DNA from: Pseudomonas graminis
Lineage (GTDB): Bacteria > Pseudomonadota > Gammaproteobacteria > Pseudomonadales > Pseudomonadaceae
Assembly: GCF_002093745.1 (NCBI RefSeq)
Contig: NZ_MTSB01000025.1
Coordinates: 1-51,922 of the forward strand
Length of the DNA stretch: 51,922 bases
Direction: 5' to 3'
In this document: positions 33,704 through 51,512 of the stretch, piece after piece
Layout of the letters: each line of letters starts with the position of its first letter
Numbering within the stretch: position 1 is the first letter of the stretch
Program-made: the position numbers and the translations under genes
Notes under the pieces: model-generated
Told to the model about the DNA's origin: nothing
The model's input: only the letters and a program-made list of their open reading frames with translations
Databases searched by the model: none

Positions 33704-34372
33704 ATGAGCTTTCTTCGACCAAAATTCATTACGTTCGACTGCTACGGCACCTTGACCAACTTCCACATGGGCACCATGACGCGCGAGCTTTTCGCCGACC
33801 GCGTTCCGGCTGAACAAATGGACCAGTTCGTCCGGGACTTCTCGGCGTATCGTCTGGACCAGGTCATGGGTGACTGGATGCCTTATGACGAAATCCTGAA
33901 AGTGGCACTGTCCCGTACGTGCAAGCGCTGGAACGTTGAATACCGCGAAGAAGGCCAGCTGTATTACGACGCTGTGCCGACCTGGGGTCCGCATGCAGAT
34001 GTACCGGCCGGCCTGTCGAAAATCGCCGACAAGATCCCGTTGGTGATCTTTTCCAACGCCAGCGACAGCCAGATCATGTCCAACGTCGAAAAGCTCGGCG
34101 CTCCTTTCCACAAGGTCTTCACCGCTGATCAGGCCAAGGTCTACAAGCCGCGCCTGGCCGCTTTCGAATTCATGCTCGACAACCTGGGTTGCGGCCCGGA
34201 AGACATCTTGCATGTGTCTTCCAGCTTCCGTTACGACCTGTTCTCCGCGCACGACATGAAAATCAAGAACAAGGCCTTCGTGGCACGCGGTCACGAACAG
34301 CCGGCGAACAGTTTCTACGAATACCACCAGATCCCGGACATCGGCGGACTGGCCGGGCTGGTCGGCCTCTAA
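33704..34372 (+). CDS. haloacid dehalogenase type II
   Basis: A 222-residue HAD protein closest in pattern to L-2-haloacid dehalogenases. The nucleophile motif is 'FITFDCYGTLTNF' (Asp near residue 11), motif II 'LVIFSNASD', the Lys is in 'VYKPRLAAFEFML', and the last motif is 'HVSSSFRYDLFSAHD'. Known dehalogenases have Tyr after K-P and Ser-Asn-x-x-Asp in the last motif. Here these are Phe and Ser-Ser-x-x-x-Asp, so true dehalogenation is doubtful and another C-X or phosphoester hydrolysis is possible. It is the first gene of the catabolic locus, 66 bases before the flavin oxidase. Confidence 0.85.
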   Translation: MSFLRPKFITFDCYGTLTNFHMGTMTRELFADRVPAEQMDQFVRDFSAYRLDQVMGDWMPYDEILKVALSRTCKRWNVEYREEGQLYYDAVPTWGPHADVPAGLSKIADKIPLVIFSNASDSQIMSNVEKLGAPFHKVFTADQAKVYKPRLAAFEFMLDNLGCGPEDILHVSSSFRYDLFSAHDMKIKNKAFVARGHEQPANSFYEYHQIPDIGGLAGLVGL

Positions 34373-34438
34373 GGCGGGCAAACCGGGCGACACCGGCATT
34401 TTTCAAGGTGCTCTTCCATGAGTGACAAGGGGAACAGA

Positions 34439-35713
34439 ATGCGCAGTGAGTCCTACTGGCTCGACACAGCTCCAGACTTTACCGGTGCCCGGGACGGCGC
34501 AGTGGAGGGGCAGGCTGACGTGGTGGTGGTCGGTGGCGGTTTTACCGGTCTCTCGGCAGCGCGTGCATTGGCCTTGAAAGGTGCCAGCGTGGTGGTTCTG
34601 GAATCCGGTCGGGTGATCGGTGAGGCGTCTGGCCGCAACGGCGGGCAGTGCAACACCGGCGTGGCCCAGGACTACGCGTCGTTGAGCGCGACCCTGGGCG
34701 CCGATCAGGCGCGTGAGTATTACAAGGCTTACGAAAGCGCGGTGCAGAGCGTCGTCACGGTGGTCGAGCAGGAAAACATTGCCTGCGACATCAAGCGTAA
34801 CGGCAAGCTCAAACTGGCCGCCAAGCCAGGGCATTACGAAGGGCTGGCGCGCACCTGCGAGCTGATTCGTCGTGAAGTCGATCCCGATGTGGAGCTGCTG
34901 TCGGCTCAGGACGTGCGCGCCGAGATCGATTCAGCCGAATTCCACGGCGGCCTGTTGCAGCGCAACGGCGTGCAGATGCACGTCGGTCGGTTTGGCCTGG
35001 GGCTGGCTGACGCTGCCGTGCGTCATGGCGCGCGGATGTATCAGGACGCCAAGGTCAAGGACTGGAAGGCCAATCGAGGTGGCTTCGTGGTCAACACCTC
35101 GAAAGGCTCTATTCAGGCCGGGCAGGTGCTGCTCGCCACCGGAGCCTGCCAGCACGGCGGGTTGGGCTGGTATCGCCGTCGCATCGTCCCGGTCGGTAGC
35201 TTCGTGATCGTCACCGAAGTGCTGCCGCAGGCGCTGATCAACCAGTTGTTCCCCCACCAGCGTTCCTACGTCACCAGCCGCTTGATCGGCAACTATTTCC
35301 GTCTTACCCCGGATAACCGTTTGCTGTTTGGCGGGCGGGCGCGCTTTGCAATGTCCAACAGCAGTTCCGATGCCAAAAGCGGCAAGGTGCTGCAGGCGGC
35401 GATGGTGCAGATGTTTCCGCAACTGGCCCACATTAAAGTCGATTACTGCTGGGGTGGTCTGGTGGACATGACCTCCGACCGTTTGCCGCGTGCAGGCGAA
35501 CACGACGGCGTCTTCTACTCGATGGGCTACAGCGGTCACGGCGTGCAGATGTCGGTTCACATGGGGCAGGTGATGGCCGAGGTCATGGAAGGCAAGGCGC
35601 AGGCCAACCCCTGGAAAGACCTGAGCTGGCCAGCCATTCCTGGCCATTTCGGCAAGCCCTGGTTTCTGCCTCTGGTCGGCGCTTATTACCGCTATCAGGA
35701 CAGCCGCCACTGA
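34439..35713 (+). CDS. FAD-dependent amine oxidoreductase (DAO family, PuuB-like)
   Basis: A 424-residue flavoprotein of the D-amino-acid/glycine oxidase fold. The FAD-binding Rossmann motif is 'DVVVVGGGFTGLSAARALA', then 'SGRNGGQCNTGVAQDYASL', the region seen in gamma-glutamylputrescine oxidase-type enzymes. The closing 'FYSMGYSGHGVQMSVHMGQ' completes the FAD site. It should oxidise a secondary or primary amine next to a carboxylate. I choose ATG 34439 (AAGGGGAAC upstream); ATG 34418 is in frame with AAGGTG. The ABC importer genes follow 93 bases later. Confidence 0.88.
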   Translation: MRSESYWLDTAPDFTGARDGAVEGQADVVVVGGGFTGLSAARALALKGASVVVLESGRVIGEASGRNGGQCNTGVAQDYASLSATLGADQAREYYKAYESAVQSVVTVVEQENIACDIKRNGKLKLAAKPGHYEGLARTCELIRREVDPDVELLSAQDVRAEIDSAEFHGGLLQRNGVQMHVGRFGLGLADAAVRHGARMYQDAKVKDWKANRGGFVVNTSKGSIQAGQVLLATGACQHGGLGWYRRRIVPVGSFVIVTEVLPQALINQLFPHQRSYVTSRLIGNYFRLTPDNRLLFGGRARFAMSNSSSDAKSGKVLQAAMVQMFPQLAHIKVDYCWGGLVDMTSDRLPRAGEHDGVFYSMGYSGHGVQMSVHMGQVMAEVMEGKAQANPWKDLSWPAIPGHFGKPWFLPLVGAYYRYQDSRH

Positions 35714-35806
35714 GTTTTTGTTTGACCGTCGTCGTGTGTGCATGAAGGACGCTCCGGCCAACCGTGAGCAACTCGGAATTTCCCCTTTTCGACAGGTAGA
35801 ACTGAT

Positions 35807-37444
35807 ATGACTGACAAGAAAAACGACTCCACGTTGATCACAGGTGAAGACAGCCTGCGGGTTTTCGAAGGGCTCAATCGCGGTCTGTCGCGTCGCGATG
35901 CATTGCGCATGCTGGGTGTTGCAGGTGTGGTTGCGGCAGGCTCCAGCAGCCTGTTCAGCGCCGCGGGCAAGGTGTTTGCCGATGACGCGGACGCTCCGGT
36001 AAAAGGCAAGCCAGGCGGTCGTATCCGTGTGGCCGGCATGTCCAGCTCGACGGCTGATACGCTGGACCCGGCCAAGGGTGCGCTGTCCACCGACTACGTT
36101 CGCCATTTCATGTTCTACAACGGTCTGACCCGCTTCGACAGCCATCTGGTTCCGCACATGGAACTGGCCGAGAAGATCGAAAGCGACAACGCGACGGTCT
36201 GGACCGTGACCCTGCGTCAGGGTGTGACTTTCCACAACGGCAAGGCGCTGAGCGCGGGCGACGTGGTGTTCTCCCTGTCCCGTCACAAGGACCCGGCCAC
36301 CGGCTCGAAAGTGCTGCCACTGATGGCGCAGTTTTCCGAGATCAAAGCCACTGGCCCGCTGGAAGTGCAGATCACCCTCAGCTCGCCGAACGCCGAGCTG
36401 CCGTCGATCCTCGCGGTCTCGCATTTGCTGATCGTGCCCGAAGGCACCACCGACTTCAGCAAAGGCATCGGCACCGGCCCGTTCACCGTCAAGGAGTTCA
36501 ACCCTGGCGTGCGTTCGGTCAGTGCGCGTAACCCCAATTACTGGAAACCGGGCCTGCCGTACCTCGACGAGATCGAATTCATCGCCATTGCCGATGAGCC
36601 ATCGCGGGTCAACGCGCTGCTGTCCGGCGATGTTCACATGATCAACGAGGTCAACCCGCGTTCGACGTCGCGTATCGCGGCGAGCGCCACGCACCGGGTT
36701 GTGGACGCGCCGTCCGGCAACTACACCGACCTGATCATTCGTCAGGACCAGATGCCCGGCAAGAGCCCGGAATTCACCGAGGCCATGAAATACCTGCTGG
36801 ACCGTGAACAGGTCAAATCAGCGGTGTTCCGCGGCTACGCCCGGGTGGGCAATGACCATCCGATCTCACCCGGCTCGCGCTACTTCAACGCGGATCTGCC
36901 GCAGCGTGCCTACGATCCTGAAAAAGCCAAATTCCTGCTCAAGAAAGCCGGCATGGAAAAGATCACTATGGCCGTGGCGGCATCGCCGGCTGCGACCGGT
37001 TCGGTGGACATCGCCGTGCTGCTGCAACAGTCCGCTAAACAGGCCGGTCTGACCCTCAACGTCAACCGTCTGCCAAGCGATGGCTACTGGTCCAACCACT
37101 GGATGAAGCACCCGCTGAGCTTCGGCAACATCAACCCGCGACCGAACGCCGACGTGATCTTCTCGCAGTTCTTCCAGTCCACCGCACCGTGGAACGAGTC
37201 CGGCTGGAAGAATGACCAGTTCGACCAGTTGCTGCTGCTGGCCCGTGGCGAAACCGACGACGCCAAGCGCAGCAAAATGTATGGCGACATGCAGGCACTG
37301 GTCAGCCAGAACTGCGGCATCGGCATTCCGGTATTCATCAGCAACATCGATGGCGTGGACAAGCGTATCCAGGGCTACTCCAGCAATCCGCTGGGCGGCT
37401 TCATGGGCTACATGTTCAGCGAGCAGGTGTGGCTGGACGCGTAA
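35807..37444 (+). CDS. ABC transporter substrate-binding protein (family 5), Tat-exported
   Basis: A 545-residue periplasmic binding protein of the peptide/opine/nickel class (DppA/OppA fold). The N-terminus has a twin-arginine signal, 'GLSRRDALRMLGVAGVVAAG' at residues 27-46, with cleavage near 'KVFADD'. This implies export in folded form. Family motifs 'LTRFDSHLVPHMELAEKIE' and 'FHNGKALSAGDVVFSLSRHKDP' are present. It delivers the substrate to the two permeases encoded directly downstream. Family 5 proteins carry di- and oligopeptides, opines and other amino-acid conjugates. Confidence 0.92.
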   Translation: MTDKKNDSTLITGEDSLRVFEGLNRGLSRRDALRMLGVAGVVAAGSSSLFSAAGKVFADDADAPVKGKPGGRIRVAGMSSSTADTLDPAKGALSTDYVRHFMFYNGLTRFDSHLVPHMELAEKIESDNATVWTVTLRQGVTFHNGKALSAGDVVFSLSRHKDPATGSKVLPLMAQFSEIKATGPLEVQITLSSPNAELPSILAVSHLLIVPEGTTDFSKGIGTGPFTVKEFNPGVRSVSARNPNYWKPGLPYLDEIEFIAIADEPSRVNALLSGDVHMINEVNPRSTSRIAASATHRVVDAPSGNYTDLIIRQDQMPGKSPEFTEAMKYLLDREQVKSAVFRGYARVGNDHPISPGSRYFNADLPQRAYDPEKAKFLLKKAGMEKITMAVAASPAATGSVDIAVLLQQSAKQAGLTLNVNRLPSDGYWSNHWMKHPLSFGNINPRPNADVIFSQFFQSTAPWNESGWKNDQFDQLLLLARGETDDAKRSKMYGDMQALVSQNCGIGIPVFISNIDGVDKRIQGYSSNPLGGFMGYMFSEQVWLDA

Positions 37445-37475
37445 ATGCAACGCTGGATCGAGCGGGAGGATGCAG

Positions 37476-38432
37476 ATGAATAGCAACACACTCTGGTTGA
37501 TCGTGCAGCGCTTCGGCGCGGCGATTGTGACGTTGTTGATCGTTTCCATCGTGGTCTTCGCCATTACGGCGGTGCTGCCTGGGGACGCGGCGCAACAGGC
37601 TCTTGGGCAATTCGCGACGCCTGAACAGGTCGCGGCATTGCGTACAAAACTGGGCCTGGATCAACCCGGCGTGGTGCGTTATCTGCATTGGCTGACCGAC
37701 CTGCTCGGTGGCAACTTCGGTGAATCGGTGTCCAACGCGATGCCGGTTTCCGACCTGATTGCCGGACGCTTTCCGAAGACCCTGATGCTGTCGGCCACCA
37801 CCGCGCTGGTGTCGGTGCCGGTCGCGCTGGCACTGGGCATCGGTGCCGCGATGTACCGCGGCAGCCGCCTCGATGGCGCGCTGAATTTCATTACGCTGAC
37901 GCTGGTGGCGGTGCCCGAGTTTCTGGTGGCCACGCTGGCCGTGCTGATTTTTGCCGTCAACCTGGGCTGGCTGTCGGCCTTGTCCTATGGCGGTGATGTC
38001 AGCTCGCCCTGGCAGTTCATGCGCACTTACGCGTTGCCGGTGATGACCCTGTGCTGCGTGATCGTGGCGCAGATGGCGCGCATGACCCGCGCTGCGGTCA
38101 TCGATCAACTGGACAGCCCGTACGTGGAAATGGCCCGCCTCAAGGGCGTCGGGCCGGTTCGTATCGTCTTGCGTCACGCCCTGCCGAATGCCATCGGGCC
38201 AATCGTCAATGCGGTGGCGCTGAGCCTGTCTTACCTGCTGGGCGGGGTGGTTATCGTTGAAACCATCTTCAACTACCCCGGCATTGCCAGCCTGATGGTC
38301 GACGCCGTGACCAACCGCGACATGGCGCTGGTTCAAGGCTGCACCATGCTGTTCTGTTCCGCTTACCTGGGTCTGGTGCTGATGGCCGACCTGTGTGCAA
38401 TTCTTTCCAACCCGAGGCTGAGAACCCAATGA
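37476..38432 (+). CDS. ABC transporter permease (DppB-like)
   Basis: A 318-residue inner-membrane permease with six hydrophobic segments. The N-terminal 'LPGDAAQQALGQFATPEQVAALRTKLGLD' periplasmic loop is typical of DppB/OppB. The ATPase-contact EAA loop is 'PYVEMARLKGVGPVRIVLRHALPNA'. The ATG at 37476 follows GGGAGG. Its stop overlaps the next permease start (ATGA). It forms the translocation pore with the next gene product. Confidence 0.93.
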   Translation: MNSNTLWLIVQRFGAAIVTLLIVSIVVFAITAVLPGDAAQQALGQFATPEQVAALRTKLGLDQPGVVRYLHWLTDLLGGNFGESVSNAMPVSDLIAGRFPKTLMLSATTALVSVPVALALGIGAAMYRGSRLDGALNFITLTLVAVPEFLVATLAVLIFAVNLGWLSALSYGGDVSSPWQFMRTYALPVMTLCCVIVAQMARMTRAAVIDQLDSPYVEMARLKGVGPVRIVLRHALPNAIGPIVNAVALSLSYLLGGVVIVETIFNYPGIASLMVDAVTNRDMALVQGCTMLFCSAYLGLVLMADLCAILSNPRLRTQ

Positions 38433-39307
38433 CTGAATTCATTGAGAAATCGATGCCTGTTGCGCCGGAACCGGTGCCACGCAAAAAAGTAGCCCGCCCG
38501 ACCTCGTGGCTGGGCCTGCTGGGCGCGACGGTGTGCTTCATCTGGCTGATGGTCGCGCTGTTCGGCCCCTGGCTTGCGCCGCATCCCGTGGGTGAAGTGG
38601 TGTCCGACAACATGTTTGAAAACATGAGCGCGGCGTACCCGTTCGGCACGGACTACTTGGGCCGCGACATGCTCAGCCGAGTGTTGGTCGGCGCGCGCTT
38701 CACTGTGGGTCTGGCGTTGATCTCTGCCGTACTGGCCAGCGGCATTGGTACGCTGTGTGCGCTGCTGTCGGTGGTCGCGCCCAAATGGCTGGACGAAATT
38801 ATCAGCCGTCTGATGGACGCGTTCATTTCGATCCCGAGCAAGATGCTGGCGCTGATCATGGTGTCGGCGTTCGGCTCGTCCGAAGTGCTGCTGATCTGCA
38901 CGGCAGTGCTCAGTTACACGCCGGGCGCCTTCCGTATCGCGCGCAGCATGGCGGTGAATATCGAGGCGCTGGAATACGTGCAAGTGGCGCGTACGCGGGG
39001 TGAAGGTCGCGTGTATATCGCCTGTCGGGAGATCCTGCCGAACATGCTCAACCCGGTCATGACGGACTTGGGCCTGCGGTTCGGTTTCATCGTGTTGCTG
39101 CTCAGCGGCATGAGCTTCCTCGGGCTGGGCGTGCAACCGCCCGATGCGGACCTGGGTTCATTGGTGCGCGAGAACATCGGTGGCCTCAGTCAGGGCGCCC
39201 CGGCCATCGTGATCCCTGCGCTGGCGATCGGCACGCTGACCATCGGCGTCAACCTGTTCATCGACCGGTTGGCCTCACGGCGCGGTCGCCGCTCGGGAGG
39301 GCATTGA
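38429..39307 (+). CDS. ABC transporter permease (DppC-like)
   Basis: A 292-residue partner permease. The N-terminal cytoplasmic tail is followed by a first helix at about residues 27-49. 'AAYPFGTDYLGRDMLSRVLVGARFTV' is the DppC/OppC signature. The EAA loop is 'LEYVQVARTRGEGRVYIACREILPNML'. It starts within the stop codon region of the previous permease and ends two bases before the ATPase gene. Confidence 0.93.
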   Translation: MTEFIEKSMPVAPEPVPRKKVARPTSWLGLLGATVCFIWLMVALFGPWLAPHPVGEVVSDNMFENMSAAYPFGTDYLGRDMLSRVLVGARFTVGLALISAVLASGIGTLCALLSVVAPKWLDEIISRLMDAFISIPSKMLALIMVSAFGSSEVLLICTAVLSYTPGAFRIARSMAVNIEALEYVQVARTRGEGRVYIACREILPNMLNPVMTDLGLRFGFIVLLLSGMSFLGLGVQPPDADLGSLVRENIGGLSQGAPAIVIPALAIGTLTIGVNLFIDRLASRRGRRSGGH

Positions 39308-39308
39308 G

Positions 39309-41150
39309 ATGAGCCAGTTGATTCGAGTGCAGGACCTGCGTGTGGTCGCCGATGGCGATCACGGCGAACTGGAGATCGTCAAAGGCGTCAGCTTCTCGCT
39401 GGAAAAGGGCGAGGTGCTGGCGTTGATCGGCGAGTCCGGCTCCGGCAAGACCACCATCGCGCTGGCGCTGCTGGGTTATGCCCGGCGCGGCTGCAAACTG
39501 GCCGGCGGCGTGGTTCAGGTGGGCGAGCACGACATGCTCAGCCTGCCGGAAAGCCAGTTGCAGGGCCTGCGCGGCAACCGTGTTTCGTATATCGCACAAA
39601 GCGCGGCAGCGGCGTTCAACCCGGCGAAAAAACTGATTGATCAGGTGATCGAAGGTGCGCTGATTCATGGTCTTGGCACGCGTGCAGCGCTGGAAGCCAA
39701 GGCTGTTGAACTGTTCCGCGACCTGGCGTTGCCCAACCCTGAAACCATCGGTCGGCGTTACCCGCACCAGGTGTCGGGCGGCCAATTGCAGCGGGTCATG
39801 GCGGCGATGGCGCTGATCAGCGATCCGTTGCTGGTGATCCTCGACGAACCGACCACCGCGCTGGACGTCACGACGCAGATCGATGTGCTGCGCGCGTTCA
39901 AGCGGGTGGTCCGCGAGCGTGGCGCGACGGCGGTCTATGTTTCTCACGACCTGGCTGTCGTGGCGCAGATGGCCGACCAGATTGTCGTGCTCAACGGTGG
40001 GCAGATTGTCGAAACCAGCAGCACCGCCGCGCTGCTCAGCGGTCCCGAAGAGGCCTATAGCCGCAGCCTGCTGGCGGCGGCGCGCCCGGACAGGATACTG
40101 ACCCCGGCCAGCGAGGTGGTCAAAGACACCACGCTGTTGACCATCAAGGGCCTGACCGCGGGCTACGGCAAAAAGAACCTGCAAGGCATGCCGATGATTC
40201 GCGTGCTGGAAGACATCGACCTGACCATCCGCCGTGGCCAGGCCGTGGGCGTGATTGGCGAATCCGGTTCGGGCAAGTCGACCCTGGCCCGTGTGGTTGC
40301 CGGTCTGCTGGACCCGGCCCACGGCAGCCTGACGTTCGACGGTGCCGAATTGTCCGGCTCGCTGACCGGTCGCACCGAAGAGCAGTTCCGGCGCATTCAG
40401 ATGGTGTTCCAGAATGCCGACACTGCGCTCAACCCGATGCACAGCGTCAGTGCGATTCTCGCCCGACCGCTGAAAATGTATTTCGGCCTCAAGGGCAAGG
40501 CGCTTCGCGAGCGTATCGACGAACTGATGGACCTGGTGCGTCTGCCTCGCGAACTGGCCGAGCGGCGTCCCAATGAACTGTCGGGCGGGCAGAAACAACG
40601 CGTCAACCTGGCCCGCGCCCTGGCGGCCAAGCCAGACCTGATTCTCTGTGATGAAGTGACCTCGGCGCTGGATACCGTGGTCGGTGCCTGCATCCTTGAA
40701 CTGCTCGGTGAATTGCGTCGCAAGCTGGGTGTGTCTTACCTGTTTATCAGCCACGACATTTCCACGGTGCGCGCCCTGTGCGACGACATCGTGGTGATGT
40801 ACAGCGGCCACAAGGTCGAAGAGGGCAGCCGTGAGGCGTTCAGTCGCGTGCCGTTCCACCCTTACACCGACCTGCTGGTGCATTCGGTGCCGGAGCTGCG
40901 TCAAGGCTGGCTGGAGAGCTGTGGCGTGACTACCGGCAAGCTGCCGCCCATCAGCGCGCCGGCCAACACGCCGGAGCTGTGTACCTTTCTCAATCGCTGC
41001 CCGTCCCGTGTTGAAGGGGTGTGCAACAAGACTGCGCCGGATCGTCGCCTGATTGCAGGCGGCAGTGAAATCCTTTGCCATCGCAACAGCGACGAGCTTG
41101 AGGCCGTGCAAGCAGACCTGAACCCTATGACCGCAGGAGCCTACGCATGA
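39309..41150 (+). CDS. ABC transporter ATP-binding protein, fused DppD-DppF type
   Basis: A 613-residue protein with two complete ATPase domains. Domain 1 has Walker A 'GESGSGKTT', signature 'VSGGQLQRV' and Walker B 'LLVILDEPT'. Domain 2 (from about residue 280) has Walker A 'GESGSGKST', signature 'LSGGQKQRV' and Walker B 'LILCDEVTS' (with Cys-Asp-Glu). The C-terminal oligopeptide-type extension 'CTFLNRCPSRVEGVCNK' carries Cys residues that could hold an iron-sulfur cluster, as in some Dpp ATPases. One fused protein replaces the usual DppD and DppF pair. Its last four bases overlap the next gene. Confidence 0.94.
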   Translation: MSQLIRVQDLRVVADGDHGELEIVKGVSFSLEKGEVLALIGESGSGKTTIALALLGYARRGCKLAGGVVQVGEHDMLSLPESQLQGLRGNRVSYIAQSAAAAFNPAKKLIDQVIEGALIHGLGTRAALEAKAVELFRDLALPNPETIGRRYPHQVSGGQLQRVMAAMALISDPLLVILDEPTTALDVTTQIDVLRAFKRVVRERGATAVYVSHDLAVVAQMADQIVVLNGGQIVETSSTAALLSGPEEAYSRSLLAAARPDRILTPASEVVKDTTLLTIKGLTAGYGKKNLQGMPMIRVLEDIDLTIRRGQAVGVIGESGSGKSTLARVVAGLLDPAHGSLTFDGAELSGSLTGRTEEQFRRIQMVFQNADTALNPMHSVSAILARPLKMYFGLKGKALRERIDELMDLVRLPRELAERRPNELSGGQKQRVNLARALAAKPDLILCDEVTSALDTVVGACILELLGELRRKLGVSYLFISHDISTVRALCDDIVVMYSGHKVEEGSREAFSRVPFHPYTDLLVHSVPELRQGWLESCGVTTGKLPPISAPANTPELCTFLNRCPSRVEGVCNKTAPDRRLIAGGSEILCHRNSDELEAVQADLNPMTAGAYA

Positions 41151-41458
41151 GTGGCCGTTTTGTGAGGCTGGGCGAGCGTGATCGTCCGGTCGTGAGCCTG
41201 GTGGTCGACGGTGCGCCCATCGAAGCCTTGCAGGGCGACACCCTGATGGTTGCGCTGCTGACCCGCAAAGCCGCGCTGCGCCAGTCCGAGTTCGACCCCG
41301 GACGGCGTGCCGGCTTCTGCCTGATGGGCGCCTGTCAGGATTGCTGGGTCTGGACCCGCAGCGGCGAGCGGCTGCGCGCCTGCTCCAACGAAGTCCGCGA
41401 CGGACTCGACATCGTCACCACCCAGCCGGAGGCGAAATGGCCACTTCTTCACGGTTAG
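41147..41458 (+). CDS. small (2Fe-2S)-binding subunit of a flavin oxidase (OoxC/HcnA-like)
   Basis: A 103-residue plant-ferredoxin-like subunit. Cys58, Cys63, Cys66 (GFCLMGACQDC) and Cys79 (RACSN) have the spacing of the [2Fe-2S] ferredoxin fold. It is the small electron-transfer subunit of three-part oxidases such as opine oxidase, hydrogen cyanide synthase and D-hydroxyproline dehydrogenase. The start overlaps the ATPase stop by four bases (ATGA), tying the oxidase to the importer. The next subunit gene starts 22 bases before its end. Confidence 0.9.
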   Translation: MSGRFVRLGERDRPVVSLVVDGAPIEALQGDTLMVALLTRKAALRQSEFDPGRRAGFCLMGACQDCWVWTRSGERLRACSNEVRDGLDIVTTQPEAKWPLLHG

Positions 41459-43997: not shown

Positions 43998-45151
43998 GCC
44001 CCCGTGTACTGGAAATCCTCAAGCGGTTGATTGCCTTCGACACCGTGTCGTCGGAGCCGAACATGGCGCTGATCGAATACGTCCGTGAGCTGCTGGCCAG
44101 CAAGGGCATCGAGTCGTTGATCGTCAAGGACGAGACCGGCAAGAAGGCCAACCTGTTCGCCAGCACCGGCCCGCGTGACGTGCCGGGCGTGCTGCTTTCC
44201 GGACACACCGATGTGGTGCCGGCTGCTGGCCAGGCGTGGACCCTGCCACCGTTTCAGGCGACGCTGCGCGACGGGTGTATCTACGGGCGCGGCACCTGCG
44301 ACATGAAAGGGTTTATCGCCCTGGCCATCGACGCCATGCTCGATGCGGCGGACATGACGCTGATCCGTCCGCTGCAACTGGCTTTATCCCACGATGAAGA
44401 AATCGGCTGCGTCGGTGTGCGACGGCTGCTGGATGTGTTGCATCTGGCGCCAGTGCGTCCGTTTCTGTGCGTGGTGGGCGAGCCGACCCTGATGCAGTTC
44501 GCGGTCGGGCACAAAGGCAAAGCTTCGTACCGCACCTTCTGCCGGGGGCAGGAAGCGCATTCTTCACTGGCGCCCCGGGCGGTCAATGCGATTCATCTGG
44601 CGAGTGATTTCATTGCCGAACTGCGCAAGAGTCAGAAACAGATCGAGCAGCAGGGCGCGCGCGACGAGGGCTATGACATCCCTTACAGCACGGTACACAT
44701 CGGACGTATCGATGGCGGCAAGGCGCTGAACATTGTGCCTAATCTTTGCACGATGGAATTCGAATACCGGAACCTGCCCGGGGACAATCCCGAACGGTTA
44801 CTGGAGCAATTGCGCGAGCGCGCCGAAGTGCTGGTCCGCGAGGCGCGTCAGCTGTCAGGCGTGGCCGCCATCGAGATCGAAGTCATGAACGAGTACCCGG
44901 CGCTGGAGACCCACCCCAGTGTGGAAGCGGTGCGCATGCTGCATGCCTTCGCCGAACCCGGCACGCAGCACGTCAAGGTGTCCTATGGCACTGAAGGCGG
45001 GCTGTTCGCCGGACGGCTCAACGTGCCGGTGGTGGTTTGCGGGCCAGGTTCTATCGAGCAGGCGCACAAGCCGGACGAGTTTATCGACGAGAGCCAGATG
45101 GACGCGGGCGAGCGGTTTTTGCAAAGCCTGCTGGGCTCGCTGAAGCAGTAG
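43994..45151 (+). CDS. argE: M20 family deacylase, acetylornithine deacetylase ArgE-like
   Basis: A 385-residue zinc amidohydrolase. Metal ligands are visible in 'VLLSGHTDVVPA' (His), 'YGRGTCDMKGFIALA' (Asp) and 'LSHDEEIGCVGVRRLL' (catalytic Glu-Glu). The dimerisation lid is 'GHKGKASYRTFCRGQEAHSS'. The family removes the acyl group from N-alpha-acyl ornithine or related amino acids. As pseudomonads recycle acetylornithine through ArgJ, this copy inside a catabolic operon more likely acts on the imported compound or on an oxidation product. Its start overlaps the oxidase stop by four bases. Confidence 0.88.
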   Translation: MSPRVLEILKRLIAFDTVSSEPNMALIEYVRELLASKGIESLIVKDETGKKANLFASTGPRDVPGVLLSGHTDVVPAAGQAWTLPPFQATLRDGCIYGRGTCDMKGFIALAIDAMLDAADMTLIRPLQLALSHDEEIGCVGVRRLLDVLHLAPVRPFLCVVGEPTLMQFAVGHKGKASYRTFCRGQEAHSSLAPRAVNAIHLASDFIAELRKSQKQIEQQGARDEGYDIPYSTVHIGRIDGGKALNIVPNLCTMEFEYRNLPGDNPERLLEQLRERAEVLVREARQLSGVAAIEIEVMNEYPALETHPSVEAVRMLHAFAEPGTQHVKVSYGTEGGLFAGRLNVPVVVCGPGSIEQAHKPDEFIDESQMDAGERFLQSLLGSLKQ

Positions 45152-45265
45152 AGGCTGCCGTCCGGGCGTCAATTTCAGCATCGGACGCTGCCGTTATCCT
45201 GCTTTCAGCATCCTGGACTGCGGCGTCTGCCTAGACTGGCAGGTATCCCGAAACAGGACTCGACC

Positions 45266-46723
45266 ATGCTCAAGAATCAGTTGAAAGACCCCAGCCTGCT
45301 GGTAGAACGCGCCTATGTGGATGGCCAGTGGATCAGCGCCGACGACGGTGCGGCGTTGACCATCACCGACCCGGCAACCGGCGAAACGCTCGCCCGTGTG
45401 CCGGCCCTGCAAGGTCCAGAAACCCGTCGTGCCGTCGAAGCCGCCGACCGCGCCTGGCCGGCGTGGCGTGCGCGTCCTGCCGCCGAGCGTGCGGCGCTGC
45501 TGGAGCGTTGGCATCAGGCGATGCTCGACAACGTCGAAGACCTGGCATTGATCATGACACTCGAGCAGGGCAAGCCACTGAACGAGGCGCGTGGCGAGAT
45601 CCGCTACGGCGCCAGCTTCGTCAAATGGTTCGCTGAAGAAGCGCGTCGTGCCTACGGCGAAACCATTCCGACACCCAGCGCGGATCGTCGCTTGATGACG
45701 CTCAAGCAGCCCGTCGGTGTCTGCGCGGCAATCACGCCGTGGAACTTCCCCAACGCGATGATCACCCGCAAATGCGCGCCGGCTCTGGCCGCGGGCTGCC
45801 CGATCATCGTCAAACCTTCGGACCTCACGCCGTTGTCGGCCTTGGCCCTGGCCGTGCTGGCCGAGCGTGTGGGCATTCCGGCTGGCGTCTTCAACGTGGT
45901 CACCGGCATGCCCGCTGGCATTGGCGAAGAGCTGACCGGCAACCCGGTGGTGCGCAAGATTTCCTTCACCGGTTCCACCGCGGTCGGCCGTCTGCTGATG
46001 CGCCAGAGCGCCGAACACATCAAGCGCCTGAGCCTGGAACTGGGCGGCAACGCGCCGTTTATCGTCTTCGATGATGCCGATCTGGAGCAGGCGGTGGCGG
46101 GCATCATGCTCAGCAAGTTCCGCAACGCCGGGCAGACGTGCGTGTGCGCCAACCGGATTCTGGTGCAGAACGGCATTTATGATCGTTTCGCTGCACGTCT
46201 GGTGGAAGAAGTCGCCAAACTCAAGGTCGGCAACGGTCTGGAAGAGGGCGTGACGATTGGCCCGCTGATCAACCCGGCAGCCGTCAGCAAAGTGGCCCGG
46301 CACATTGATGATGCGCTGAGCCAGGGCGCGACGCTGCTGCATGGCGAGCGTCCGACAGGCGACAGCCAGTTTGTCCAGCCGACAGTGTTGGGCGATACCC
46401 ATGCGGGCATGCTGCTGGCCAACGAAGAAACGTTCGGCCCGGTCGCTCCGCTCATGCGCTTCACCGACGAAGCCGAGGCCCTCGCACTGGCCAACGCCAC
46501 ACCCTACGGTCTGGGTGCTTATTACTTCACCCAGGACCTGCGCCGTTCATGGCGTTTCGGCGAGGCGCTGGAGTTTGGCATGGTCGGCCTCAACACCGGC
46601 ATCATCTCAATGGAAGTCGCCCCGTTCGGCGGCATCAAACAATCCGGCCTGGGCCGCGAAGGCTCCAGCTACGGCCTGGATGAATACCTGGAAGTGAAAG
46701 CGTTTCATGTGGGTGGGTTGTAG
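45266..46723 (+). CDS. NAD(P)-dependent succinate-semialdehyde dehydrogenase-type ALDH
   Basis: A 485-residue aldehyde dehydrogenase closest in pattern to GabD. The conserved parts are 'ITPWNFPNAMITRKCAPALAA' (catalytic Asn), 'FTGSTAVGRLLM' (cofactor), 'LSLELGGNAPFIVFD' (general-base Glu) and 'RNAGQTCVCANRI' with the nucleophile Cys292. The second Cys two residues later is typical of redox-regulated succinate semialdehyde dehydrogenases. It would oxidise a semialdehyde made by the amine oxidases or the aminotransferase encoded nearby. The 114-base gap before it may hold a separate promoter. Confidence 0.9.
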   Translation: MLKNQLKDPSLLVERAYVDGQWISADDGAALTITDPATGETLARVPALQGPETRRAVEAADRAWPAWRARPAAERAALLERWHQAMLDNVEDLALIMTLEQGKPLNEARGEIRYGASFVKWFAEEARRAYGETIPTPSADRRLMTLKQPVGVCAAITPWNFPNAMITRKCAPALAAGCPIIVKPSDLTPLSALALAVLAERVGIPAGVFNVVTGMPAGIGEELTGNPVVRKISFTGSTAVGRLLMRQSAEHIKRLSLELGGNAPFIVFDDADLEQAVAGIMLSKFRNAGQTCVCANRILVQNGIYDRFAARLVEEVAKLKVGNGLEEGVTIGPLINPAAVSKVARHIDDALSQGATLLHGERPTGDSQFVQPTVLGDTHAGMLLANEETFGPVAPLMRFTDEAEALALANATPYGLGAYYFTQDLRRSWRFGEALEFGMVGLNTGIISMEVAPFGGIKQSGLGREGSSYGLDEYLEVKAFHVGGL

Positions 46724-46740
46724 CAGCGCAGTACAACTGA

Positions 46741-46950
46741 CTCTCGTGCCCATGCTCCAGGCACATCGTCATACACAAGCCCTGGAGCGCCCGAAATAAA
46801 GGGCTTCAAGGCTTCTGCCCGAAGGGCGTGAGGGCAAACGTGTTCGCTCACTCTCGTGCCCATGCTCCAGGCTCATCGTTATACAAGCCTTGGAGCGCCC
46901 GGAATAAAGGGCTTCAAGGCTTCTGCCCGAAGGGCGTGGGAGCGAACTTG
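46741..46950. repeat. tandem duplication with 110-base period
   Basis: 'CTCTCGTGCCCATGCTCCAG' begins at both 46741 and 46851. The two units stay closely similar through 'GGGCTTCAAGGCTTCTGCCC' and 'GAAGGGCGTG', differing by scattered substitutions and a 2-base gap. The 3' end of each unit contains a REP-like 'GCGAACTTGTTCGC' or its decayed form 'GCAAACGTGTTCGC'. Confidence 0.8.
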
Positions 46951-47025
46951 TTCGCGAAGACGGTGTGTCAGTCGATGCATTTTCGGCGGTCACACTAACC
47001 CTTTCGCGAACACGTTCGCTCCCAC
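46936..47025. repeat. REPIN (two inverted REP sequences)
   Basis: Left REP: GTGGGAGCGAACTTGTTCGC (46936-46955) with a GCGAAC-TT-GTTCGC stem. The right REP is the inverted copy, GCGAACACGTTCGCTCCCAC ending at 47025. About 50 bases lie between. This is the standard Pseudomonas REP doublet, of a sequence variant (GCGAAC stem) different from the array at 51.5 kb (GCGGAC stem). Confidence 0.85.
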
Positions 47026-47094
47026 GGCCTCCGGCCAGAATCAAAAGCGGACGTGTGTATAACGATGAGTGCTCCGCGTCGGCACGATAATCAG

Positions 47095-48024
47095 CTAATA
47101 ACCCTGCCCGCGATCCACCTGGCCTTGCATCGCTTCACCGCGCTCAAAGCGGCGGATATTGTCGAGCAGCCCGGGGAAGGCGCTTTCCGGTTGGGTCATG
47201 GCCGCGACGTGCGGCGTCAGCAGGATTTTCGGATGTTTCCAGAACGGATGGTCGGCCGGTGCTGGCTCCTGCTTCAGCACATCCAGCACGGCAGCGCTCA
47301 GTTGGCCGCTGTCCAGCGCTTCAAGCAGGTCGGCCTCCACCAGATGTCCGCCACGGCCCATGTTGATCAACGCAGCCCCTTTGGGCAATCGATCAAACAG
47401 CTGACGGTTGAGGATGCCTTCGGTCTGCCCGGTCAGCGGCAATACACACAGCAGAATGTCGCACTGGGCGAGAAACTCACCGAGCTGCTCTTCACCCGCG
47501 TAGCACATCACGCCTTCGACCTGATGCGCGCTGCGTGCCCAGCCTGACAGCTCGAAACCGAACGGTTTGAGACTCGACAGAATATGCTGCGCTTGCAAGC
47601 CCAGGCCCATCACGCCGACCCGACGCTTGTGCGCCGGTATCAATGGCTGGGCTTTCCAGAGCCCTTCAACCTGCTGCTGTCGATAACGCAACATCTCCCT
47701 ATGCAGGCTCAGCACCGCAAAGGTCGCGTACTCGCACATCCCGTGGCTGATGCCCGGGTCCAGCAGGCGAACCACCGGCAGGGATTTTGGAATGCGGCTC
47801 AGGTCCAGTTGATCCACACCGGCTGACAGGGCAAACAGCACTTTCAGGTTCGGCAGCAACTCCTGCAGATCGTCAGGTGCCAGCCAGGCGCCCAGGTAGT
47901 GGATGTCGGCCGGGTCGCCGATGTCCGGCCATACCCGCCATTCGATGTCAGGTGCGTGCTCGGCAAACAGGACGCGCCAGCGTTCGGCGCGTGCGGGATC
48001 GGCTTTGTAGAGCAGGGCGGGCAT
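47095..48024 (-). CDS. ghrA: glyoxylate/hydroxypyruvate reductase A-type 2-hydroxyacid dehydrogenase
   Basis: A 309-residue D-isomer-specific 2-hydroxyacid dehydrogenase of the GhrA type, reducing glyoxylate, hydroxypyruvate or a related 2-keto acid with NAD(P)H. The NAD(P) site is 'RVGVMGLGLQAQHILSSLKPFG', then 'LPLTGQTEGILNR' and 'INMGRGGHLVEADLLEAL' (catalytic Arg is expected nearer 'SAGVDQL..', Glu in 'LKQEPAPADHPFW', His in 'LLTPHVAAM'). The ATG at 48024 has AGGA upstream; an ATG two codons earlier is too close to it. It alone is on the minus strand within the catabolic locus and diverges from the aminotransferase gene. Confidence 0.88.
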   Translation of the reverse strand: MPALLYKADPARAERWRVLFAEHAPDIEWRVWPDIGDPADIHYLGAWLAPDDLQELLPNLKVLFALSAGVDQLDLSRIPKSLPVVRLLDPGISHGMCEYATFAVLSLHREMLRYRQQQVEGLWKAQPLIPAHKRRVGVMGLGLQAQHILSSLKPFGFELSGWARSAHQVEGVMCYAGEEQLGEFLAQCDILLCVLPLTGQTEGILNRQLFDRLPKGAALINMGRGGHLVEADLLEALDSGQLSAAVLDVLKQEPAPADHPFWKHPKILLTPHVAAMTQPESAFPGLLDNIRRFERGEAMQGQVDRGQGY

Positions 48025-48308
48025 GGGCATTTCCTGAGCATGAAAGTGGAGCCCCATCATGCCGCAAATCGGGAGCAGGATCTGTCGAAACGCCCGTTTA
48101 CAGAGCGTTGCAGCGCCTGAAAAGCAGCGTTGCCCGGCAGATTGCGTGGTGCTCGCGGGGCATGAAGGAATCTGCCGTTTGTGAGGGGAAAAACAGTCGA
48201 TATGGACTTCTGAGGGGCGAAGTTCGGCGTAGATCATTTCGCTGAACGCTTAACCTGAACACCATCGCAGCCACCCCGCCGGCTGCCTGGCCCATGATAG
48301 GTAAAACC

Positions 48309-49613
48309 ATGAACAGCAAAGTCGACGATACCCCTCATCTGCTTCGTCAGCGCGATCAGTTTGTGCCGCGTGGCATTGTCACGGCCCACCCGTTGGTCAT
48401 CGACCGCGCTCTGGGTTCCGAATTGTGGGACGTCGATGGCAAGCGCTACCTGGATTTCGTGGGCGGCATTGGCGTCTTGAACATTGGTCACAACCATCCG
48501 AACGTGGTCAAGGCGATCCAGGCCCAACTGACCAAGGTCACCCACGCCTGTTTTCAGGTGGCGTCCTATCAGCCCTACGTCGACCTGGCCAAACGCCTGA
48601 GCCTGATCATCGCCGGTCAGAGTGGTATCGATCACAAAGCGGTGTTCTTCACCTCCGGTGCCGAAGCGGTGGAAAACGCGGTGAAAATCGCCCGCGCCCA
48701 CACCAATCGCCCGGCGATCATCTCGTTTCGCGGCGGCTTTCACGGCCGTACGCTGCTGGGCACGACGCTGACCGGCATGAGCCAGCCGTACAAGCAGAAC
48801 TTCGGCCCGATGGCGCCTGAAGTGTTCCACACGCCTTACCCGAACGAGTACCGCGGCGTGACCACCGAGGTGGCGCTGGCGGCGCTGCATGAGCTGCTGG
48901 CGACTCAGGTTGCACCGGATCGTGTGGCAGCCATCCTGATCGAGCCTGTGCAGGGCGACGGTGGCTTCCTGACCGCGCCGGTCGAATTCCTCAAAGCCTT
49001 GCGTGCTCTGACCGAACAACATGGCATCGTGCTGATTCTCGATGAGATCCAGACCGGTTTCGGTCGTACCGGCAAGTGGTTCGGTTTCGAACACTCCGGC
49101 ATCCAGCCTGACCTGGTCACCGTTGCCAAAAGCCTCGCGGGCGGGATGCCGTTGTCGGGCGTGGTCGGGCGTGCCGAGATCATGGACGCACCGCTTCCGG
49201 GCGGCCTGGGGGGCACTTACGGCGGCAATGCGCTGTCCTGCGCCGCTGCGCTGGCGGTGATCGATACCTATGAGCAGGACAACCTGCTGGCGCGTGGCGA
49301 ACAATTGGGCGAGCACTTGCGCGCAGGTTTGCTCAAGCTCAAGCATCGTTACAGCTGCATCGGCGATGTGCGCGGCACCGGCTTCATGCTGGCCATGGAA
49401 ATGGTCAAGAACGACGCCGCGCGCAGCCCGGACGCCGACCTCAATCAGAAGGTCATCGATCAGGCGCGCATCGGCGGTCTGTTGGTGATCAAGTGTGGCG
49501 TTTATCGCAACGTGTTGCGCTTCCTGGCACCTCTGGTGACCACTGAGCAGCAGATCGATGAAGCGCTGACCATTCTCGATGCCGCCTTGGCACGAGTATT
49601 GAAATCCAGCTAA
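48309..49613 (+). CDS. class III aminotransferase, GabT-like (4-aminobutyrate type)
   Basis: A 434-residue fold-type I PLP aminotransferase. The PLP lysine is Lys274 in 'LVTVAKSLAGGMPLSGV', with 'FFTSGAEAVENAVKIARAHT' (phosphate site), 'GGFHGRTLLG' and 'VLILDEIQTGFGRTGKW' upstream. It would move the amino group of an omega-amino acid such as GABA or 2,4-diaminobutyrate to 2-oxoglutarate, giving a semialdehyde for the nearby dehydrogenase. ATG 48309 is chosen with AGGTAAAACC upstream; ATG 48294 is in frame. The exact substrate is open. Confidence 0.9.
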   Translation: MNSKVDDTPHLLRQRDQFVPRGIVTAHPLVIDRALGSELWDVDGKRYLDFVGGIGVLNIGHNHPNVVKAIQAQLTKVTHACFQVASYQPYVDLAKRLSLIIAGQSGIDHKAVFFTSGAEAVENAVKIARAHTNRPAIISFRGGFHGRTLLGTTLTGMSQPYKQNFGPMAPEVFHTPYPNEYRGVTTEVALAALHELLATQVAPDRVAAILIEPVQGDGGFLTAPVEFLKALRALTEQHGIVLILDEIQTGFGRTGKWFGFEHSGIQPDLVTVAKSLAGGMPLSGVVGRAEIMDAPLPGGLGGTYGGNALSCAAALAVIDTYEQDNLLARGEQLGEHLRAGLLKLKHRYSCIGDVRGTGFMLAMEMVKNDAARSPDADLNQKVIDQARIGGLLVIKCGVYRNVLRFLAPLVTTEQQIDEALTILDAALARVLKSS

Positions 49614-49690
49614 GCACAGGCGTGATCGCGGTTGTCGTCAGACGCCGCGGTTGCGGGTGCTGGGATCACTGAATGGAGACGTTGCCAGCC

Positions 49691-50347
49691 ATGGGGCTTA
49701 TTGATTACCGCGCACTGTTGATCGACTGCGATGAAGTACTGGTGGATCGTGATTCAGGTATCTGGTCGGCGTTGCAGCCCTTGCTGGATAACGGCGTGGG
49801 TACACCGGACAAAGACCGGATGATGACCGAGTTCAACGAGGTCATCGATACGCTGTATCCACGCTTTGGCGAGCTGGGTTTCAGCGGTCTGCTGTGTTTT
49901 GCGCATCGTCAGCTGGCCGAGCGCCTTGGCATCAAGGCCAGTTGGGAAGAGGGCATGACCTTCGCCCGCTCGGTGCCGAACTGGACGCTGTTCGAGGACG
50001 CACCGGGCGCGATGCTCTACCTGCGCAAGTTCTACCGATTGCTGGTCTACGCCGACCGCGACTTGCAGGATCGCGGCATTTTGTGCGAGCGGTTGGGGCT
50101 TGAGCCTGACAGCCTGCTGTCGTTGACCACGCACCCACTGGACGATCCACGCTGGCTCGCCGACATGGATCTTGCTCCCGGAGAAACCCTGCGCGTGTCC
50201 CGCCCTCCGGCCTCCGCGCTGGCGACCGGCGGCCTGTGCCTGATCCGTCGTGGTCGTGAACAGCACAATCAGCCATGCACGGCTGACCTCTGCATCAACA
50301 GCATGGCGGATCTCGTTGCTCAGCATCAGCTGTCTTTACGGCGCTGA
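49691..50347 (+). CDS. degenerate HAD-superfamily protein
   Basis: A 218-residue protein with a HAD start 'YRALLIDCDEVLVDRDSGIW' (Asp-x-Asp kept). Where motif II should carry Ser/Thr the sequence reads 'RLLVYADRDLQDRG'. No Lys stands at the motif III position ('HPLDDPRWLADMD'), and the acidic motif IV is not apparent. It therefore probably lacks normal phosphatase or dehalogenase activity, and it resembles the size and cap of the type II dehalogenase at 33704. ATG 49673 is an alternative start with GGGA upstream. It sits between the aminotransferase and the regulator genes on the same strand. Confidence 0.75.
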   Translation: MGLIDYRALLIDCDEVLVDRDSGIWSALQPLLDNGVGTPDKDRMMTEFNEVIDTLYPRFGELGFSGLLCFAHRQLAERLGIKASWEEGMTFARSVPNWTLFEDAPGAMLYLRKFYRLLVYADRDLQDRGILCERLGLEPDSLLSLTTHPLDDPRWLADMDLAPGETLRVSRPPASALATGGLCLIRRGREQHNQPCTADLCINSMADLVAQHQLSLRR

Positions 50348-50394
50348 TTTTGCTAGAAGGTAGGCAACGTGAATGGCAATGCATGAGGTAGGTA

Positions 50395-50883
50395 ATGGAA
50401 GGCTTGGTCAAACTGGATCGGATTGATATCAATATCCTGGTAGAACTCCAGAAAGACGGGCGCATGACCAACGTCAGCCTGGCCGACGCCGTCGGGCTTT
50501 CCGCGAGCCCTTGCCTGCAACGTGTCAAACGTCTTGAGTCGGCGGGTTACATCTCCAGCTACAAGGCGCACCTGAATCTCGCAAAAATCACTGAATCGGT
50601 CACCGTGTTCACGGAAATCTCCCTGAGCGACCACAAGCGTGAAGACTTCGCCAAATTCGAAGCCAATATTCGCCATGTGGACGAAGTGCTGGAATGCCAT
50701 CTAATCAGTGGCGGCTACGACTACCTGGTGCGCTTCATGACCCGCAGCATTCAGCATTACCAGGAAGTGATCGAAGAACTGCTGGACAAGAACATCGGCA
50801 TCTCCAAGTACTTCAGCTACATCGTCATCAAATCCCCGGTCATGAAAGATGGCGTGCCACTGCGCAAACTGTTGCGCCATTGA
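50395..50883 (+). CDS. Lrp/AsnC family transcriptional regulator
   Basis: A 162-residue feast/famine regulator. The N-terminal helix-turn-helix is 'LDRIDINILVELQKDGRMTN' followed by 'VSLADAVGLSASPCLQRVKRLE'. The C-terminal RAM ligand-binding domain has 'VLECHLISGGYDYLVRFMTR'. GAGGTAGGTA precedes the ATG. These proteins sense amino acids and usually control adjacent amino-acid genes, so this one is the likely regulator of the catabolic locus to its left. It is separated by 47 bases from the HAD gene. Confidence 0.93.
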   Translation: MEGLVKLDRIDINILVELQKDGRMTNVSLADAVGLSASPCLQRVKRLESAGYISSYKAHLNLAKITESVTVFTEISLSDHKREDFAKFEANIRHVDEVLECHLISGGYDYLVRFMTRSIQHYQEVIEELLDKNIGISKYFSYIVIKSPVMKDGVPLRKLLRH

Positions 50884-51431: not shown

Positions 51432-51512
51432 ATGATTTACAGCATGTAATACGGCAGCGGATGAGTGGAGGTTTATGGGGGCTTGGGAACGGATGAGTGG
51501 AGGTAGATGAGT
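51432..51512. repeat. degenerate start of the REPIN array
   Basis: Before the first clear REPIN are two imperfect copies of the array spacer ('GGATGAGTGGAGGT..ATG' near 51458-51478 and 51490-51510) separated by 'GGGGGCTTGGGAACG', a decayed REP head. It is the older edge of the array next to the transposase gene. Confidence 0.6.

Follow-up and report, generated by a model that had tools for sequence, protein, structure and literature searches.

A co-inherited catabolic locus of Pseudomonas graminis anchored by a relative of azetidine hydrolases, with a possible role in nicotianamine and mugineic acid breakdown

Which compound is taken up and broken down by a gene cluster that combines a peptide-type importer with amine oxidases, a deacylase, and two HAD-like proteins? 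The cluster lies in a 51,922-nucleotide stretch of Pseudomonas graminis DNA (contig NZ_MTSB01000025.1, positions 1 to 51,922; the window), and a preliminary description of it proposed a 17-kb import-and-oxidation locus, centered on a three-subunit oxidase, for an opine-like or N-acylated amino acid. The genes named there, namely, a family-5 ABC importer, an FAD-dependent amine oxidase (DAO1), the three-subunit oxidase (oxG, oxA, and oxB, together oxGAB), an ArgE-type M20 deacylase, an aldehyde dehydrogenase (ALDH), a GabT-type aminotransferase, a GhrA-type reductase, two HAD proteins (HAD1 and HAD2), and an Lrp-type regulator, are present as open frames where they had been placed, as judged by Pfam and NCBIfam scans. 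Comparison with relatives delineates a real, widely distributed, and apparently unnamed catabolic system of about seventeen genes, shared by many bacteria that live with plants and anchored by a HAD hydrolase, HAD1, akin to azetidine hydrolases. Tentatively, the locus would import, ring-open, oxidatively cleave at C–N bonds, and assimilate an opine-like plant amino acid with an azetidine ring; nicotianamine and/or the mugineic acids are the likeliest candidates.

Conservation of the locus within and beyond Pseudomonas

A screen of 149 Pseudomonas genomes with the ArgE-type gene yielded 30, the window's own included, with a copy of at least 63% identity. The 29 further loci are the best ArgE matches besides the window's own, and are thus selected for the presence of ArgE; the 14–20 kb around each was examined. 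The order HAD1, DAO1, binding protein, both permeases, ATPase, and ArgE is kept in 29 of 29, at identities of 56–99%. In the same loci, some of whose stretches end early, ALDH is found in 27, a complete oxGAB in 24, and GabT at more than 70% identity in 21. Four loci (L059, L063, L065, and L066) have no match to oxG, oxA, or oxB between the ATPase and ArgE genes, though the neighboring genes are kept, and the trio is also absent from L081. Across 248 genomes of the family, a DAO1 copy of at least 67% is present in 22, and the next best matches stand at 37%, a sharp gap; two of the 22 carry a second copy of 56–57%. In the window's own genome, an aminotransferase-like gene and a HAD1 copy of 84% are found on contig C38, and a GNAT-like gene and a DAO1 copy of 57% on contig C10. 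Genome G020 (locus L061) is labeled as the same species as the window, but its locus is ∼79% and its pck gene 84% identical to those of the window, and the label looks wrong.

For searches of 398 Pseudomonadota genomes, E-value limits of 1e-80 (DAO1) and 1e-40 (HAD1) were used; a gap separating orthologues from paralogues was directly observed for DAO1 alone, and there within the family. DAO1 is present in 25 genomes (best copies at least 52%) and HAD1 in 28 (best copies at least 51%), which include all 25 DAO1-positive genomes; the probability of this shared phylogenetic profile, uncorrected for relatedness, is ∼1e-36. The genomes with HAD1 only retain parts of the set: GNAT, a second ALDH type (ALDH2), another FAD oxidase, GhrA, HAD2, and Lrp in G430; a binding protein, an FAD oxidase, Lrp, an aminotransferase, ALDH, a cupin, and GhrA in G492; and GNAT with merely weak oxB and transporter matches in G656. 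Among 20 loci outside the genus, HAD1 is found in 18, GNAT in 19, ALDH in 16, GhrA in 13, a GabT-type gene in 12, and ArgE in 8; none of the 20 has a complete oxGAB.

A scan of GTDB genomes gave 586 confirmed candidate loci, of which the best 80, not a random sample, were compared. In 66, DAO1 has at least 44% identity; the other 14, with DAO1 paralogues of 33–37%, served as controls. Neighbors were counted within about 10 kb of DAO1, HAD1 with the window protein alone. Counts are descriptive for the auxiliary queries taken from relatives' loci, which were tartrate dehydrogenase, M20D, small cupin, HADb, BhcC-like, other FAD oxidase, and EutB/EutC-like queries as well as second-lineage GabT, GNAT, ArgE, GhrA, ALDH2, and binding-protein queries. 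The 66 loci include Pseudomonas cichorii, graminis, gingeri, viridiflava, and lactucae; other Proteobacteria (Burkholderia, Paraburkholderia, Caballeronia, Azospirillum, Herbaspirillum, Variovorax, Bradyrhizobium, Rhizobium, Mesorhizobium, Ensifer, Sphingomonas, and Erwinia, along with several Rhodobacteraceae and acetic acid bacteria); and the actinobacteria Lentzea, Occultella, Paenarthrobacter, Arthrobacter, and Sinomonas.

HAD1 accompanies DAO1 in 58 of the 66 loci versus none of the 14 controls, and in 51 of these 58, the two genes are same-strand neighbors less than 300 nt apart. GNAT (52/66) and GhrA (36/66) are likewise absent from the controls, as are ArgE (22/66), a DoeB2-like M20 enzyme (6/66; one or the other deacylase in 28/66), and the cupin homologue (10/66). 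ALDH is seen in 35 loci versus 2 controls and a second ALDH in 30 versus 1. GabT-type (44/66 versus 8/14) and Lrp (27/66 versus 3/14) genes, both of common families, discriminate poorly. The binding protein is of two types, a window type in 34 loci and a rhizobial type in 22, with the same catabolic core, a possible sign of substrate variation or of transporter replacement.

The preliminary description had pointed to scattering of the genes in relatives as the observation that would speak against it; such scattering was looked for and not observed, either within the genus or in the loci beyond it, and the locus is very probably one co-inherited catabolic system. Its center, however, is not the three-subunit oxidase. 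The trio is complete in only 22 of the 66 loci, and because it is missing from L059, L063, L065, and L066 while its neighbors are kept, oxGAB is an accessory module. The constant parts are HAD1, the most constant of all although placed at the periphery earlier, and GNAT, not listed earlier.

DAO1 matches at E ≤1e-80 are also found in 318 plasmid records, 135 from Rhizobium, 73 from Sinorhizobium, and 16 from Klebsiella. On the IncFIB plasmid pSJ25_1 of a clinical Klebsiella pneumoniae isolate (L188, 1–29278), next to IS110 and IS5 elements, the system is nearly complete: the importer is accompanied by genes for HAD, oxidases, GNAT, GhrA, an amidohydrolase, GabT, and Lrp.

Family relationships of the encoded proteins

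HAD1 (33704–34372, plus strand) is a type II HAD protein by family and fold (TIGR01428, 161.8 bits; cut-off, 125.4). Type II HAD proteins with the same catalytic Asp and Lys include the L-azetidine-2-carboxylate hydrolase of Pseudomonas sp. A2C (3smv, 8ywo, and 8yvw), the protein of structures 8hp5–8hp7, and AzhA of Aspergillus nidulans. Scored with a profile of 24 HAD1 proteins, the solved L-azetidine-2-carboxylate hydrolases reach 111–117 bits and every other listed enzyme 72 bits or less, with cis-epoxysuccinate hydrolases at no more than 72 and L-2-haloacid dehalogenases at no more than 66 bits. Residues D12, T16, R50, K148, and D178 are invariant in the 24 sequences, and in alignments with 3smv and 8hp5, D12 and K148 fall at the positions of the catalytic Asp and Lys. 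The structure that matches best, 8hp7, is described as trapped with (2R)-4-amino-2-hydroxybutanoic acid. The proximity of HAD1 to azetidine hydrolases narrows the probable substrate class to azetidine-containing, opine-like amino acids, and on balance, HAD1 is predicted from its sequence to open an azetidine ring. HAD1 is shorter than these hydrolases and, unlike them, shares its locus with genes for an importer, amine oxidases, GNAT, and a deacylase.

HAD2 (49673–50347, plus strand) matches no Pfam or NCBIfam family, a correction to the earlier mention of two HAD proteins; this second, divergent HAD-like protein is recognized only by its similarity to solved azetidine hydrolases (68 bits to 8hp5). 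In the alignment to these enzymes, no Lys of HAD2 stands opposite the catalytic Lys. HAD2 is found in 18 of the 29 Pseudomonas loci at 53–88% identity, being less conserved than HAD1, and a different second HAD is seen in rhizobia (19 of the 66 GTDB loci). HAD2 is perhaps a non-catalytic partner.

DAO1 (34418–35713, plus strand; PF01266, 223.6 bits) has as its nearest NCBIfam models the L-pipecolate oxidase AmaA (182.3 bits; cut-off, 600) and an aminophosphonate oxidoreductase, both with scores far below cut-off. The trio consists of the 103-residue [2Fe-2S] subunit oxG (41147–41458; PF13510 Fer2_4, 77.9 bits), the FAD/BFD-[2Fe-2S] subunit oxA (41437–42846; PF07992 and PF04324), and the DAO-family subunit oxB (42843–43997; PF01266, 253.1 bits), all on the plus strand. 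With small [2Fe-2S], FAD/BFD, and DAO subunits encoded in one operon, the trio has the layout of opine-oxidase-type trimers. OoxA/OoxB and NoxA/NoxB are opine oxidases, and hydrogen cyanide synthase is another [2Fe-2S]/FAD/DAO-type trimer. These systems have the subunit composition of oxGAB, which here adjoins a peptide/opine-type importer; unlike in opine oxidase systems, the trio is missing from many otherwise complete loci.

The importer comprises a periplasmic binding protein (35807–37444; PF00496, 253.8 bits), permease 1 (37470–38432; PF00528 and PF19300; start site inferred), permease 2 (38429–39307; PF00528), and a double ATPase (39309–41150; PF00005, two stretches), again on the plus strand. 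It belongs to the same transporter superfamily as the staphylopine (Cnt) and nickel (Nik) importers, and the ATPase scores 373.1 bits on CntF (cut-off, 385), 372.8 on CntD (cut-off, 380), and 382.1 on NikE (cut-off, 332.55). In contrast to Cnt and Nik systems, the binding protein falls far below the CntA (56.7 versus 800) and nickel Opp5A/NikA (146.9 versus 600) equivalog cut-offs, and the importer is linked to catabolic genes.

The deacylase (43994–45151, plus strand) exceeds the cut-offs of two ArgE models (NF005710, 513.8 bits; TIGR01892, 362 bits). For the M20 enzymes of relatives, DoeB2 is the top-scoring model, or the next after a general amidohydrolase model, at 331.8–351.3 bits versus a cut-off of 550. 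The locus has an M20-type deacetylase, a transaminase, a succinate-semialdehyde dehydrogenase (SSADH)-type enzyme, and an Lrp/AsnC regulator in common with ectoine and hydroxyectoine degradation (Doe/Eut). In addition, genes resembling those for EutB/EutC (threonine-dehydratase-like and cyclodeaminase-like) or BhcB/BhcD are present in a Burkholderia cepacia plasmid (L105), in L110, and in Sinorhizobium meliloti pSymA (L186), with those of L105 below all equivalog cut-offs. A variant pathway for ectoine, hydroxyectoine, or N-acetyl-diaminobutyrate is nevertheless highly improbable: the DoeB2, EutB (242.5 versus 413 and 222.3 versus 413.35), and EutC (237.6 versus 471.65) scores are all below the curated cut-offs, and HAD1, DAO1, and the peptide-type importer are not known as ectoine genes.

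The GabT-type class III aminotransferase (48294–49613, plus strand; TIGR00700, 520.8 bits; cut-off, 506.65) and the SSADH-type ALDH (45266–46723, plus strand; TIGR01780, 680.5 bits; cut-off, 646.35) both score as γ-aminobutyrate (GABA) shunt enzymes. GABA and putrescine catabolism (GabT, GabD, and PuuB-type oxidases) shares with the locus this transaminase, this dehydrogenase, and a DAO-family amine oxidase; in contrast, no gamma-glutamyl ligase or amidotransferase was recognized among the genes listed here, and HAD, GNAT, and deacylase genes are found instead. The tartrate dehydrogenase family TIGR02089 includes D-malate dehydrogenases. A homologue, called by similarity rather than scored individually, lies near DAO1 in 22 of the 66 GTDB loci versus none of the 14 controls; four other homologues that were scored (L092, L093, L095, and L105, none among the 22) all exceed the TIGR02089 cut-off. 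In the window's genome, a copy above cut-off is on contig C33, away from all other specific members of the set. Given the transaminase and SSADH scores and the distribution of the tartrate/D-malate dehydrogenase homologue, the downstream enzymes fit (R)-malate as an intermediate.

Some loci carry further accessory genes. A D-threonine-aldolase/BhcC-like gene is present in 4 of the 66 loci (L107, L109, L127, and L132) and also in L039 and L089, where NCBIfam scores of 122–127 bits versus a cut-off of 690 indicate that the product is not BhcC itself. In P. graminis L107 and P. viridiflava L109, BhcC-like, oxB, and GNAT genes are close to cupin, GNAT, and HAD1 genes, and the same BhcC-like/oxB/GNAT module is found on contig C37 (L039) of the window's genome. 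Beside two relatives' loci, frames that by eye resemble hydantoinase/oxoprolinase subunits are observed (L090, 704–2752; L092, 10064–12010); such subunits would point to some lineages having an ATP-dependent ring-opening or lactam step.

Proposed route and candidate substrates

Nicotianamine and the mugineic acids are composed of three four-carbon units joined by C–N bonds: an azetidine-2-carboxylate unit, a central aminobutyrate unit, and a terminal unit, which is aminobutyrate in nicotianamine and hydroxybutyrate in the mugineic acids. Two amine oxidases, a ring hydrolase, a transaminase, and one or two aldehyde dehydrogenases are approximately what such a molecule requires, which points to a nicotianamine-type substrate. 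In the order of steps that we infer, the family-5 importer would take the compound in, and HAD1 would hydrolyze the azetidine ring with inversion, leaving a (2R)-4-amino-2-hydroxybutanoate unit. DAO1 and oxGAB, or other DAO-type oxidases in other species, would then oxidize the amine C–N bonds to yield four-carbon aldehydes or keto acids and amines. GNAT may acetylate an amine intermediate, from which the ArgE-like enzyme (elsewhere the DoeB2-like M20 enzyme) would strip the acetyl group. The GabT-type enzyme would convert 4-amino-2-hydroxybutanoate to malate semialdehyde, the SSADH-type enzyme would oxidize this to (R)-malate, and a tartrate/D-malate dehydrogenase, encoded in the locus or elsewhere, would produce pyruvate. 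GhrA may handle a 2-oxo or 2-hydroxy acid; this role and those of GNAT, the ArgE/M20 enzymes, and HAD2 are guesses, and Lrp presumably regulates the system. The accessory genes (BhcC-, EutB-, and EutC-like) would be suited to a central unit that is hydroxylated. The semialdehyde-to-dicarboxylate course envisaged in the preliminary description is plausible, and its co-inherited locus, opine-oxidase-like trio, and deacylase stand.

Grasses secrete phytosiderophores to obtain iron, and these compounds are destroyed quickly by soil microbes. The relevant passages of one study state that the taxa and genes responsible are unknown, and report that strain SBW25 reduces mugineic and deoxymugineic acid in Brachypodium root exudate, also through unknown genes (PMC7786132). 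Those passages also cite P. putida strains as unable to lower mugineic acids and propose other candidate genes. In the open-licence literature, no described gene set for nicotianamine or mugineic acid catabolism was found, nor any pathway with exactly the genes of this locus, in agreement with the preliminary description. More tentatively still than the substrate itself, it can be proposed that the locus represents the so far undescribed genetic basis for microbial destruction of nicotianamine and mugineic-acid phytosiderophores. This would be a mobile pathway across Proteobacteria, rhizobial megaplasmids included, and in outline Actinobacteria, in which three four-carbon units are released by azetidine hydrolysis and two amine oxidations, and the BhcC-, EutB-, and EutC-like proteins take the hydroxylated central unit of mugineic acid as β-hydroxyaspartate.

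In Rhizobium johnstonii 3841, the transporter of the locus is reported, in the section concerned, as rhizosphere-induced with an unknown solute (PMC3333776). The locus tags RL_RS35930 to RL_RS35980 correspond to pRL120603 to pRL120613, a mapping that follows from the 10.7 kb spanned by 656731–667464, the extent given for pRL120605–613. The importer of this copy is encoded by RL_RS35950–RL_RS35965, and HAD1 and DAO1 by RL_RS36015–RL_RS36020. In S. meliloti, an excerpt of PMC12542648 lists SMa1850, SMa1855 (aminotransferase), SMa1864 (ABC ATPase), and SMa1869 (amino acid oxidase) as rising together on phaR deletion in a phbC background; from tag order, these genes would be part of the pSymA copy.

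Several points weigh against a nicotianamine-type substrate, the first two of which concern HAD1. By fold, it is equally near haloacid dehalogenases and azetidine hydrolases, and its identity to known azetidine hydrolases is only 26%, whereas the A2C and A. nidulans enzymes share 44.54% (PMC8016842, in part); HAD1 is therefore not classed as an azetidine hydrolase but as a relative that may work alike. The fold comparison, together with the peptide/opine-type importer, the opine-oxidase-like trio, and an ArgE-type deacylase above cut-off, would suit catabolism of an opine or N-acylated amino acid with no azetidine ring, HAD1 hydrolyzing some other C–X bond and the other enzymes acting as proposed. 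We consider this somewhat unlikely: the trio is accessory and HAD1 constant, the HAD1 profile sets azetidine hydrolases ∼40 bits or more above other solved enzymes, and a plain opine requires neither a HAD hydrolase nor a D-malate/tartrate dehydrogenase.

The HAD1 profile ranking is also compatible with detoxification and assimilation of free azetidine-2-carboxylate or a small N-substituted azetidine. As described in part of PMC8016842, Aspergillus relies on a HAD hydrolase and the GABA pathway to use azetidine-2-carboxylate and on an acetyltransferase as a second defense; a HAD hydrolase, an acetyltransferase, and a GABA-type transaminase downstream of the hydrolase are thus common to the fungal set and the locus. 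In that case, the toxic proline analogue would be a target of acetylation by GNAT and of recycling by the M20 enzyme, with its assimilation left to HAD1, the transaminase, and ALDH. This reading is improbable, since free azetidine-2-carboxylate needs no amine oxidase, yet DAO1 occurs in 25 of the 28 genomes with HAD1, and HAD1, at the above identity, is not an orthologue of the known enzyme.

The remaining points against nicotianamine and mugineic acids come from rhizobia. According to the section cited above, induction of the Rhizobium transporter is confined to alfalfa (PMC3333776), which is unexpected for a chelator present in all plants, and SMa1862, by tag order a member of the pSymA copy (L186), is called a homologue of the proline-betaine uptake gene prbB in an excerpt of PMC3596328. 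Both findings would favor a betaine that legumes release, proline betaine or another, as the compound imported and degraded. The rhizobial and window-type binding proteins, however, differ in type, no demethylase-type gene is among the families recognized (no search aimed at demethylases was made), and HAD1, GabT, and the D-malate/tartrate enzyme would be left unexplained, making a betaine very improbable. Prb itself is an Opp-like importer, and alfalfa releases proline betaine.

A nicotianamine-type substrate would make the gene set, which can be deleted in tractable strains, a means of revealing root bacteria that remove plant metal chelators, a question that thereby becomes testable. It would also assign a role to the rhizosphere-induced Rhizobium transporter (PMC3333776, in part). 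Even with another substrate, a conserved catabolic system without a name, present in 25 of 398 Pseudomonadota genomes, merits assignment.

Gene layout and neighboring elements

Eleven co-directional genes run from HAD1 to ALDH, which ends at 46723. The mostly overlapping or abutting frames described earlier are confirmed by start-site analysis for 37470–45151, permease 1 through ArgE. Downstream of ALDH are the GhrA-type 2-hydroxyacid dehydrogenase gene on the opposite strand (47095–48030, minus; PF02826; NF012013 GhrA, 234.4 bits, below the cut-off of 403), followed by GabT, HAD2, and the Lrp/AsnC-type regulator (50395–50883, plus; PF01037 and PF13412). The 17-kb locus is real, but the unit is wider than first proposed and reaches 31439, since a tandem GNAT N-acetyltransferase gene (32313–33170, minus) and a gene for an EutQ-like Cupin_3 protein (31439–32152, minus; PF05899, 52.6 bits), the latter probably in the extended locus, recur with it upstream.

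Further upstream, two tandem 233-residue proteins with an identical C-terminal stretch and no Pfam match are encoded on the minus strand (28969–29670 and 29728–30429), and P. cichorii L106 has a related stretch, upstream of its cupin and GNAT genes. Two copies of a 108-bp repeat (46740–46955) separate ALDH from GhrA. Directly after the Lrp gene is a REP-associated tyrosine transposase gene (50909–51367; NF047646, above cut-off), and a 119-bp repeat array of 3.6 copies (51490–51922) reaches the contig end.

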